From contig DAOWAH010000003.1 of the NCBI GenBank assembly GCA_030634675.1, forward strand, positions 1-28,119: 28,119 nt of DNA, given 5' to 3'. Origin of the DNA: Fidelibacterota bacterium (GTDB lineage: Bacteria; Marinisomatota; Marinisomatia; Marinisomatales; TCS56). Positions 7,265 to 9,517 of the stretch are shown here, in pieces. The notes beneath the pieces are model-generated. The model had not been told where the DNA came from, did no database searches, and was given only the letters and a program-made list of their open reading frames with translations. A program made the translations under genes and the position numbers. Every line of letters begins with the position of its first letter. Positions within the stretch are counted from its first letter, which is position 1.

Positions 7265-8422
7265 TCACATTTTGAAATTAGATGAGATTGAACTAAATAA
7301 TTTTTCCATTATTGTTTTATTATTTTGAACTTTACGAAACACCCATTCCAATCGCGCTGGTGATGATGATAAGACACGTCTCAAAAAAAGAGATCGTCTA
7401 ATGACCCTGTAGATTTCGGACTTACAGCGTTTTTCATATTCCTGAAGAGAGGCTAATGTACAATCATTTGTTGTTAAAGCATCGTGGATTACTTCTCCTG
7501 CAATTATACCGGAATGAAGGGCATTGCGTATTCCTTCCCCGCTGAGCGGGTCCATTAGGGTGGCCGCATCCCCGACCAACACGGCGCCATTGAATGCAAC
7601 CGGTTTTAATTTTATTTCCGCCAGATGGTAGAACCAGGCTTTTGCATTTACGACCTGATGGTCCTGAGCTAATCGCTCTCTGATGTGCTCATGTTGCAGG
7701 AACTTATCCAGCAGATCCTGTAAACTTGAATCGAGCGATTGATAAGCAGATATGTAGAGACCCAGCCCAATATTGGCTGTTGTTGGACCGGTAGGGAAAA
7801 TCCAACCGTAACTGGGAAAGATTTCCTTTAGAAAATAATACTCTGCACACCCTGTAACTGTCTCTAATCCTGATATGTAACCCCGAATTCCGATTAATTT
7901 ACTATTAGTATTTGTCTGATTTTGGTGCAGAGAACGGGAGACTATTGAATTTGACCCGTCAGCGCCCACGACGACTCGTGCCGTAATATCCTGACCGGAT
8001 TGCAGTAGAATTCCGTTAATCTTGCTATTATGTTTGCTAACACCACTAACCCGGTCGGTTAAAAACTTGGCTCCTGAACTCAGGGCCTGTTGTTGCAGCA
8101 GGTAATCGAATTCTCGCCGAGGAGCAATATAAAAACCGGTCCGACTGCCCTTTGGTGTAAAACTGAAATCCAGCGCCATATTGTTAGGTGAAACAACACG
8201 CATAGCATTAATCTGATTGAAACCGGCTATCCTGATTTTTTCATCTAACCCAAGTTGGTTTAAAAGTTGGACTGAACCGGGTGGAATGCCATCACCGCAT
8301 ACTTTATCACGGGGAAATTTATGTTGATCGATTAATAAAACATCATGCCCCCGATTTGCCAGAATGATGGCAGTTGCCGAACCGGCAGGACCGGCACCAA
8401 CTATTATTACGTCGTGTTGCAT
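7265..8422 (-). CDS. Geranylgeranyl reductase family FAD-dependent oxidoreductase
   Basis: A 385-residue flavoprotein of the geranylgeranyl reductase family, which saturates double bonds of polyprenyl chains. The N-terminal Rossmann motif GAGPAG lies at 9-14. KVCGDG (41-45, with C42), the SYGWIFP block (204-210) and the second FAD motif GDAATLMDPLSGEGI (284-298) are all typical. Start: the ATG at 8422 puts the FAD motif at the usual distance, but no clear ribosome binding site precedes it; TATAAT lies immediately before the ATG. Its neighbour is a CruF-type carotenoid enzyme, so the substrate may be a carotenoid precursor, a quinone side chain or a lipid chain. Many members annotated this way have unknown substrates. 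Confidence 0.85.
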   Translation of the reverse strand: MQHDVIIVGAGPAGSATAIILANRGHDVLLIDQHKFPRDKVCGDGIPPGSVQLLNQLGLDEKIRIAGFNQINAMRVVSPNNMALDFSFTPKGSRTGFYIAPRREFDYLLQQQALSSGAKFLTDRVSGVSKHNSKINGILLQSGQDITARVVVGADGSNSIVSRSLHQNQTNTNSKLIGIRGYISGLETVTGCAEYYFLKEIFPSYGWIFPTGPTTANIGLGLYISAYQSLDSSLQDLLDKFLQHEHIRERLAQDHQVVNAKAWFYHLAEIKLKPVAFNGAVLVGDAATLMDPLSGEGIRNALHSGIIAGEVIHDALTTNDCTLASLQEYEKRCKSEIYRVIRRSLFLRRVLSSSPARLEWVFRKVQNNKTIMEKLFSSISSNFKM

Positions 8423-8527
8423 TATATAATATTAGAAAGGCTTGAAATATTTAACACAGGATTTTCTAACTGGTCAGATCAGTAAAAATAAAAGCGGAGC
8501 CTGAATTTGCAAACCCCGTTAAAATCG

Positions 8528-8815
8528 TCAGCAGCCGTAATCGGTGCCGATCCGGAATCCGCGACCCCAGGCGGGATCATCAATGAAATCAATTTTTACA
8601 GTTTTTGCGAATATTGCGAGATAAGAATCGTAAACTATTTTGATTCCGTTTACTTCGATCGAATCATCATTGTCTTGTTGCTCATCCAGAGCAAGATCCA
8701 AACGGGGACCACCTCAGCCAAACCCTGGACTGAATAAACGTAATGTCTTCCCACTGTTCTGTGACTGATTGAAGATTGATACTAATTGTTTGTGTGCTTT
8801 ATCAGTTATAGTCAT
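8528..8815 (-). CDS. HesB/IscA-like selenoprotein (in-frame TGA = Sec34)
   Basis: Reading 8815 down to 8528 gives a 95-residue protein if the TGA at 8716-8714 is read as selenocysteine. It starts MTITDKAHKQLVSIF, continues LRLFSPGFG-U-GGPRLDLALDE around U34, then has an acidic stretch, VNGIKIVYDSYL, and IDFIDDPAWGRGFRIG, and ends in TDYGC before a normal TGA. This is the fold pattern of HesB/IscA-type iron-sulfur proteins, with Sec in place of the first conserved cysteine and one cysteine at the very C-terminus. HesB-like proteins are a known bacterial selenoprotein family. Homology continues on both sides of the TGA in one frame, which argues against a frameshift. A SECIS-like hairpin follows directly. 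No clear Shine-Dalgarno sequence precedes the ATG; an in-frame TAG lies upstream, so no long extension is possible. The alternative is a pseudogene with a nonsense mutation. Confidence 0.85.
8678..8694 (-). promoter_or_regulatory. Bacterial SECIS-like hairpin
   Basis: On the minus strand the mRNA forms a perfect 6-bp stem, UUGCUC pairing with GAGCAA, closed by the five-base loop UGGAU. The loop begins 25 nt after the in-frame UGA. Known bacterial SECIS elements sit at this distance inside the coding region and carry guanines in a small apical loop. Below the stem, GUUU upstream and AGAC downstream could add four more pairs across an internal loop. It would recruit SelB loaded with selenocysteinyl-tRNA. 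Confidence 0.75.
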
Positions 8816-9000: not shown

Positions 9001-9312
9001 TTATTCGGTTGGTCTGCGCAGAACTTCGCGAATTATTTTACCAGCTTTAAAATGAGTCTTTCGGTGAGCCGGTACATAAACAATTTCGTTAGTACGAGGA
9101 TTACGGGCTTTTGGTTTAGCTTTTGTGGGTTTTGCCTCAAGTACGCCAAAATTCCGAATCTCAATACGAACACGTTCATGTTCTTCGATTAACATTTCGG
9201 CCATTACCCGAAAGGTTTTGTCAACAAAACTTTTAGTCTGGAGATCCGGGGCATTAACTTCTTTAGCAACCCGGTGGATAATATCTTTTTTAGTGTAGGT
9301 TACGGTCTTCAT
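9001..9312 (-). CDS. HU/IHF-family DNA-binding protein
   Basis: A small nucleoid protein that bends DNA as a dimer. The 103-residue product has the family signature: IRNFGVLEAKPTKAKPKARNPRT at about 52-74 with the intercalating-arm R70-N71-P72, then VPAHRKTHFKAGK. HU proteins are usually about 90 residues, so this one has a slightly longer N-terminus (MKTVTYTKKDI) and a short basic tail. I chose the ATG at 9312 because AAGGAG lies seven bases upstream; an upstream ATG at 9354 would add 14 residues with no family similarity. The variation in the usual GFG (here NFG) is mild. It is transcribed toward the selenoprotein gene, with a possible terminator between them, and diverges from the threonine aldolase gene. 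Confidence 0.92.
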   Translation of the reverse strand: MKTVTYTKKDIIHRVAKEVNAPDLQTKSFVDKTFRVMAEMLIEEHERVRIEIRNFGVLEAKPTKAKPKARNPRTNEIVYVPAHRKTHFKAGKIIREVLRRPTE

Positions 9313-9517
9313 TTTCCGACTCCTTAACAATTTAATTAAAATCAGTTTACACATAAAGTAGCTTTAGAACAAGTTAAAATATTAAAAAATTGTCAATATT
9401 ATTGATGATTGCACCGATTTTGCCCCAGATTGAGGAAACGTTTTGGCAACATCAATTGTTTTTAATACAAATTCAACCCTGTAATTTTTGTCAATTTCAA
9501 TTAGAAGGGTAGATAGA

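Follow-up and report, generated by a model that had tools for sequence, protein, structure and literature searches.

The hesB-like locus

The window, by which we mean the whole stretch of 28,119 nucleotides analyzed here, carries on its minus strand a short gene of the HesB/IscA type whose reading frame contains one internal TGA. An earlier note on this DNA had placed the gene at 8528..8815, which is correct, and had left its strand unstated. The gene and its surroundings comprise the following features (G numbers denote genomes of relatives).

7265..8422, minus strand: geranylgeranyl-reductase-family FAD protein, the next gene downstream; a neighbor also in G113, G114, and G001
8495..8518, minus strand: intrinsic-terminator-like hairpin with a T tail, past the gene; hairpins follow some TAA-ended homologs too
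8528..8530, minus strand: terminal TGA right after the C-terminal Cys95, almost certainly a real stop; homologs have mixed stops and unrelated downstream sequence
8528..8815, minus strand: hesB-like gene, very probably for a selenoprotein; ATG at 8815-8813, 95 codons (one of them UGA) before the stop; IscA-type fold in the model
8678..8694, minus strand: SECIS-like hairpin, stem 8694-8689/8683-8678, loop UGGAU at 8688-8684; the loop begins 25 nt past the UGA
8714..8716, minus strand: in-frame TGA at codon 34, most likely read as selenocysteine (GFG-U-GGP); TGA in the 12 best homologs, Cys in the Cys homologs
9001..9354, minus strand: HU-type DNA-binding protein, the next gene upstream; shared as a neighbor with G113, and with G114 at a distance of about 1.3 kb

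The start of the hesB-like gene is well bounded by a TAG in the same frame, nine codons before the ATG. Read from 8815 to 8528 with the first TGA as selenocysteine (Sec, U), the minus strand gives MTITDKAHKQLVSIFNQSQNSGKTLRLFSPGFG-U-GGPRLDLALDEQQDNDDSIEVNGIKIVYDSYLAIFAKTVKIDFIDDPAWGRGFRIGTDYGC, followed by TGA. As had been proposed from the sequence, the predicted Sec would occupy the first conserved Cys of the family, in the motif U34-G-G-P, and homologs of the Cys type have Cys at this place.

The closest relative found in the species-genome collection is L001, a Candidatus Neomarinimicrobiota MAG (genome G001). It shares with the window the order of the genes for citrate synthase, aconitase, and isocitrate dehydrogenase, whose products are 93.8, 89.4, and 95.5% identical between the two, and from this agreement we infer that the window derives from the phylum Candidatus Neomarinimicrobiota. 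The citrate synthase encoded at 362-2065 (PF00285, 320.9 bits) continues at its C terminus into a hemerythrin (HHE) domain (PF01814, 38.9 bits), and the 567-aa counterpart of this fusion in L001 is 93.8% identical.

The genes around hesB were also considered as a possible source of clues. In G113 the order is FAH, carotenoid-type protein, geranylgeranyl reductase, HesB, HU, and aldolase, and parts of this order recur in G114 and G001. The neighborhood is not kept in G031 or in the other eight loci compared. No functional operon is claimed, since the gene order extends over no more than part of the clade to which the window belongs.

A TGA shared by relatives in the phylum

The window protein was searched against 245 genomes of Candidatus Neomarinimicrobiota, of which 121 gave a match. 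The 12 best matches (E at or below 2.5e-12) all carry internal stops, and in every one of them a TGA is aligned to codon 34. In 11 this TGA is the only stop within the match, and these otherwise open copies stand at 36-62% identity. Stops are absent from all of the listed matches that rank below the best 12. The lower-ranking matches that were read (18 of 18) are ErpA/SufA-like paralogs with GGCSG and TCGCG, and no Cys version of the window protein was found among the phylum matches read. A TGA shared in this way by the 12 best homologs is beyond chance, and we consider the comparison decisive for the predicted Sec reading.

The twelfth copy, in the nearest relative G001, has two TGA, one TAG, and one TAA and lacks a start codon at the expected place; judged by these lesions, it is a decayed copy. 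It lies (L001:1-1988) between two geranylgeranyl-reductase-type genes. The upstream one, which is cut by the contig end, is 67.9% identical to the geranylgeranyl reductase of the window, and the downstream one is 48.6% identical. The presence of two such genes of unequal closeness on either side suggests a local duplication, which may have broken hesB in G001. Despite its decayed hesB, this genome encodes SelA, SelB, SelD, and tRNA-Sec.

The earlier note had named further disabling mutations in close strains as a sign against its reading. Such mutations are present in G001 and in none of the other relatives, and the sign from G001 is countered by G113 and, partly, G114, where the gene order of the window is kept around a copy with a single UGA.

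The state of the G001 gene nevertheless raises the question of whether the window gene is itself a pseudogene, in which a nonsense mutation changed a Cys codon to TGA while the syntenic G001 copy, with its several stops and missing start, decayed in another way. Were there no Sec decoding, the frame would indeed end at residue 33. We regard this explanation as very unlikely, because the same TGA persists in 11 otherwise open copies, because the hairpin beyond it covaries and Sec machinery is encoded in the genomes concerned (both described below), and because dN stays below dS past the UGA in the closest pairs of homologs. In these pairs, dN is well below dS on either side of the UGA: the two values are 0.044 and 0.494 before it and 0.052 and 0.748 past it for G131/G129, and 0.091 and 1.009 before it and 0.155 and 0.948 past it for G125/G129. 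When the window is compared with G031, G113, and G114, dS approaches or exceeds saturation, and dN amounts to 0.36-0.49 before the UGA and 0.25-0.30 past it.

A SECIS-like hairpin within the coding region

The 6-bp stem with a UGGAU loop that had been reported from the sequence is present as described: the stem TTGCTC/GAGCAA encloses the loop TGGAT and begins 19 nt past the first TGA. According to the legend to Fig. 2 of PMC13188914, the model for bacterial SECIS elements calls for a loop of 3-9 nt and a stem of 4-16 bp; the model described there also has a G as first or second base of the loop, a distance of 16-37 nt from the UGA to the loop (PMC13188914), and an energy at or below -7.5 kcal/mol (PMC13188914). 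With a loop of 5 nt, a stem of 6 bp, G as its second loop base, and a spacing of 25 nt, the window hairpin lies within the limits for shape and distance. Its energy is borderline against the -7.5 limit, at -7.5 kcal/mol with flanking bases and -6.8 without.

The stability of the hairpin is unremarkable (MFE z-score of 0.33 against shuffles). Moreover, of the window's other TGA triplets, 1129 in number, 40 are followed by a hairpin that fits the SECIS model and is at least as stable, and fold energy alone was for this reason rejected as evidence for a SECIS. By itself the hairpin is not above chance and is weak evidence. There were no Rfam matches on the window.

Comparison among relatives is more informative. 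The stem was examined across the window and the 11 single-TGA homologs, which were aligned with G001 left out as decayed. Of the 72 stem cells, 94.4% are paired, compared with 84.1% in shuffled alignments (0/500 as high), and the covariation score of 0.389 likewise exceeds all shuffles (mean 0.178, 0/500 as high), although related sequences can exceed such shuffles, so that 0/500 is not a formal probability. When the pairing partner is slid, the score reaches at most 0.111. One stem pair is U-A in five sequences, G-C in five, C-G in one, and G-U in one; the adjacent pair is G-C in six, A-U in two, and G-U in three, and is broken in one. The two arms of the hairpin fall in different codons. RNAalifold recovers the inner five stem pairs unaided, and the outermost pair is broken in three homologs (G125, G131, and G129). 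Two simpler counts, the number of stem pairs with two-sided change (2; 352/500 shuffles as high) and the number of further stem pair types (7; 71/500 as high), are not above shuffles. Taken over the alignment, the data argue strongly that the stem covaries. The earlier description of the hairpin as SECIS-like thus stands on the bacterial SECIS limits, with the energy borderline, together with covariation, and is weak on the hairpin alone.

The terminal TGA

A second TGA follows the codon for Cys95, and it too is followed by a hairpin. It is conceivable that both UGAs encode Sec, in which case the protein would end Gly-Cys-Sec-Arg-Phe and the hairpin at 8518-8495 would be a second SECIS. With -7.7 kcal/mol and 17 nt, that hairpin fits the SECIS model in energy and spacing, the proteins of G183 and G219 end Cys-Cys-TAA, and database protein P0006, which lies near G183 in the tree described below, has W, and hence a probable TGA, at the place of the second Cys. 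Against such a second Sec stands the choice of final stop among the 11 single-TGA homologs: it is TGA in G113, G114, and G032, TAA in G031, G183, G002, G125, G131, G129, and G219, and TAG in G208. The distances from the second TGA to the next TAA or TAG also differ (2, 17, 430, and 20 codons in the window, G113, G114, and G032), as do the sequences read through, and the sequences past the final stop are unrelated among homologs. Hairpins, several of them followed by T runs, come after TGA-ended and some TAA-ended copies alike, which marks them as terminators rather than SECIS elements. We therefore consider a second Sec to be extremely unlikely.

From the mixed stop codons and the hairpins after TAA-ended copies, the second TGA is almost certainly a real stop with a terminator behind it. 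That the terminal TGA serves as a stop had already been claimed, and the claim is upheld by TAA or TAG in eight of the 11 homologs and by the unrelated sequence downstream.

Cys, Trp, and truncated relatives in databases

A search of the database with the single protein returned two fragments only; a profile search found 111 proteins. Alignment of Cys and Sec homologs, which had been suggested as a check, places Cys at the UGA position in 61 of these 111 relatives. Trp stands there in a further 27 and Val in one; of the remainder, 10 are without the motif and 12 are short pieces. Relatives with G-C-GGP include P0009, P0016, P0017, P0028, P0071, and P0075.

The Trp entries deserve attention because they would be expected if UGA had been wholesale reassigned in these organisms, for example to Trp, or if it were subject to unprogrammed readthrough. 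However, P0004 matches the UGA protein of G125 at every position but the UGA, where it has W, and P0005 differs from the G129 protein by its W and one other residue. The W entries are best explained as gene calls made with code 4, and, given the identity of P0004, the W relatives are not counted as evidence for a sense codon. Reassignment is also contradicted by the Cys found at the site in most relatives, by the tRNA-Sec, SelA, and SelB present in related genomes, and by the ordinary use of TGA, which is the last codon of six of the 19 listed window genes, the hesB-like gene included. This last point agrees with the earlier observation that TGA is a normal stop elsewhere in the window and at the end of this gene. 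The chance that reassignment or unprogrammed readthrough accounts for the locus seems to us vanishingly small.

Among the short pieces, P0048 and P0053 begin a few codons past the UGA and bear the NCBI name hypothetical protein, Candidatus Marinimicrobia. Because such pieces begin just past the UGA, it can be seen that annotation splits the gene, as had been predicted for standard gene callers. Genes of this kind are thus lost from databases either as fragments starting past the UGA, two of them filed as hypothetical proteins, or as Trp versions. Another fragment, P0003, is 88% identical to the window protein after the UGA and ends in Phe, not Cys.

A tree was built from 65 rows (12 Sec rows, 47 of the 111 database proteins, and six of the 18 paralogs) on a short alignment with the Sec column masked. 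In it, the window groups with G031, G113, and G114 (100/95), and next with G208 and G219 (98/92). G125, G129, G131, G183, G002, and G032 form a second, separate Sec group, inside which the Cys proteins P0009 and P0028 fall. The six paralog rows from the phylum form a separate clade.

Selenocysteine machinery

The complete Sec system predicted in the earlier note was looked for in relatives. Each of the 12 genomes with a UGA-containing hesB encodes SelA over the cut-off and SelB (314.4 bits in G002), and 11 encode SelD; no selD match was found in G131. A tRNA-Sec match over the Rfam cut-off is present in 10 of the 12, and ARAGORN confirmed a tRNA-Sec with a TCA anticodon in nine. No tRNA-Sec was found in G032, G125, or G219, where the match in G032 is a tRNA-Ser and the best matches in G125 and G219 are tRNA-Leu. 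The tRNA-Ser in question (G032:C79:3082-3167, L075) scores 48.1 bits with the Rfam tRNA-Sec model, over the gathering cut-off of 47, which means that the cut-off alone overcounts tRNA-Sec. Missing contigs likely explain why tRNA-Sec or selD is absent from some relatives. From the machinery in these relatives, we infer that the window's own organism decodes Sec.

Across the phylum, SelB is over its curated cut-off in 166 of 245 genomes, and tRNA-Sec is over the Rfam cut-off, which also lets in tRNA-Ser, in 153 of 245. The presence of SelB is modestly linked to UGA-containing hesB (12/12 versus 154/233 other genomes, Fisher p 0.008), and that of tRNA-Sec over the cut-off is not significantly so (10/12 versus 143/233, p 0.11). 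A survey of more than 5200 organisms counts three genomes of the SAR406 cluster as having an orphan SelD (PMC5029168). The 166 genomes with selB over the cut-off present a contrast to that picture.

The selD genes have features of their own. All nine TGA-containing selD loci that were read have a Sec motif, GSGUACK in eight and GAGUACK in G183. In G208 and G219, the only listed selD match over the cut-off has no internal TGA. Matches to selD in open frames of about 740 aa without TGA occur in G001, G113, G208, and G219, and these frames are probably fusions of selD with another enzyme; a TGA-containing selD is present in G001 and G113 as well. By eye, the Sec-containing selD (L091, L092, L093) of G031 and G129 adjoins IscR-type, DUF59-type, ErpA-like, and SufB genes, and that of G125 adjoins part of the same set.

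The predicted protein and its possible role

An AlphaFold2 model of the window protein has an IscA-type fold with a mean pLDDT of 89, the last residues being low. The solved relatives found by profile are HI1723, AQ_1857, and IscA, and those found by fold are IscA, HI1723, DsrR, SufA, and AQ_1857. The match to the HesB/IscA domain PF01521, at 26.3 bits, falls exactly at the cut-off of 26.3. In the window protein and all 11 single-TGA homologs, the predicted Sec is accompanied by no thiol residues other than one or two Cys among the three C-terminal positions. All 12 proteins end in Cys, and the classical C-terminal CGC is absent from all 12.

Taken together, the shared UGA, the covarying stem, dN below dS past the UGA, the Cys homologs, the predicted fold, and the Sec machinery of relatives bear out the earlier proposal of a selenoprotein, and the gene most likely, with little doubt on our part, encodes a HesB/IscA-fold selenoprotein in which UGA codon 34 is read as Sec. 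In this event, SelB would bind the UGGAU-loop hairpin that begins 19 nt past the UGA and would bring Sec-tRNA-Sec to codon 34, Sec would replace the first conserved Cys of the family, and translation would end at the second UGA after Cys95. The selenol of Sec34 and the thiol of the C-terminal Cys would then be the only such side chains of the folded protein. These two residues most likely act together, and could do so either by binding an Fe-S cluster or metal across a dimer or by forming a selenol/thiol redox pair.

A more tentative idea, and one that we think is rather unlikely to be right, is that this branch has no role whatever as an Fe-S carrier, having shed the CGC to become a two-centre selenol/thiol protein for redox chemistry or for selenium or soft-metal handling. 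We know of no IscA-fold protein to which a function of this kind has been assigned.

Comparison with known HesB/IscA proteins

The A-type Fe-S carriers IscA, SufA, and ErpA have three cysteines, of which the last two lie in a C-terminal CGC. The window protein shares their fold: Foldseek comparison with chains of 1r94, 1x0g, 2d2a, and 2apn (HI1723, which we take to be an ErpA) gave E values of 4.7e-6 to 3.0e-4 (0.001 or better) and TM scores to the query of 0.65-0.79. It differs from them in that the CGC is missing and the predicted Sec replaces the first Cys, and because of the missing CGC we do not claim membership among the A-type carriers. By contrast, the IscA-type paralogs of the phylum keep GGCSG and TCGCG (18 of 18 read), and six branch elsewhere in the tree.

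The HesB-like selenoproteins are an established family, defined by TIGR01911 and the motif UxGP in Table 1 of PMC13188914. Table 1 of PMC1794560 lists 11 members, and Table 3 of PMC5029168 lists 90 selenoproteins in 86 organisms. Among the open-access papers searched, none on the Neomarinimicrobiota branch was found, and PMC12013277 and PMC2398784 gave no passage on HesB and this phylum. One member, MMJJ_08070 of Methanococcus maripaludis, was found by mutagenesis and 75Se labeling (PMC11097638), and nitrogen fixation was unimpaired in its disruption mutant, according to an unpublished observation quoted in that paper (PMC11097638). By description, both it and the window protein would be HesB-like selenoproteins; MMJJ_08070 is archaeal.

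All 12 Sec members match both TIGR01911 (HesB_rel_seleno) and NF038090 (IscA_HesB_Se) at E 0.001 or better. The window protein lies below the curated cut-offs (62.4 versus 85 for NF038090 and 36.6 versus 66.35 for TIGR01911), and none of the 12 Sec members reaches the cut-off of NF038090 (best, 68.7). Because of these scores, the branch is filed beside NF038090 and TIGR01911, not inside them. The Cys members P0064 and P0075 do pass NF038090 (145.3 and 102), and they have Cys-rich tails that are absent in this branch. In common with the family, the window protein would have the IscA/HesB fold, Sec at the first Cys, and UxGP, with a SECIS-like hairpin inside the coding region. On sequence grounds, it is a divergent branch of the established HesB-like selenoprotein family, a protein whose kind is not new, and this branch can now be placed in an uncultured phylum.
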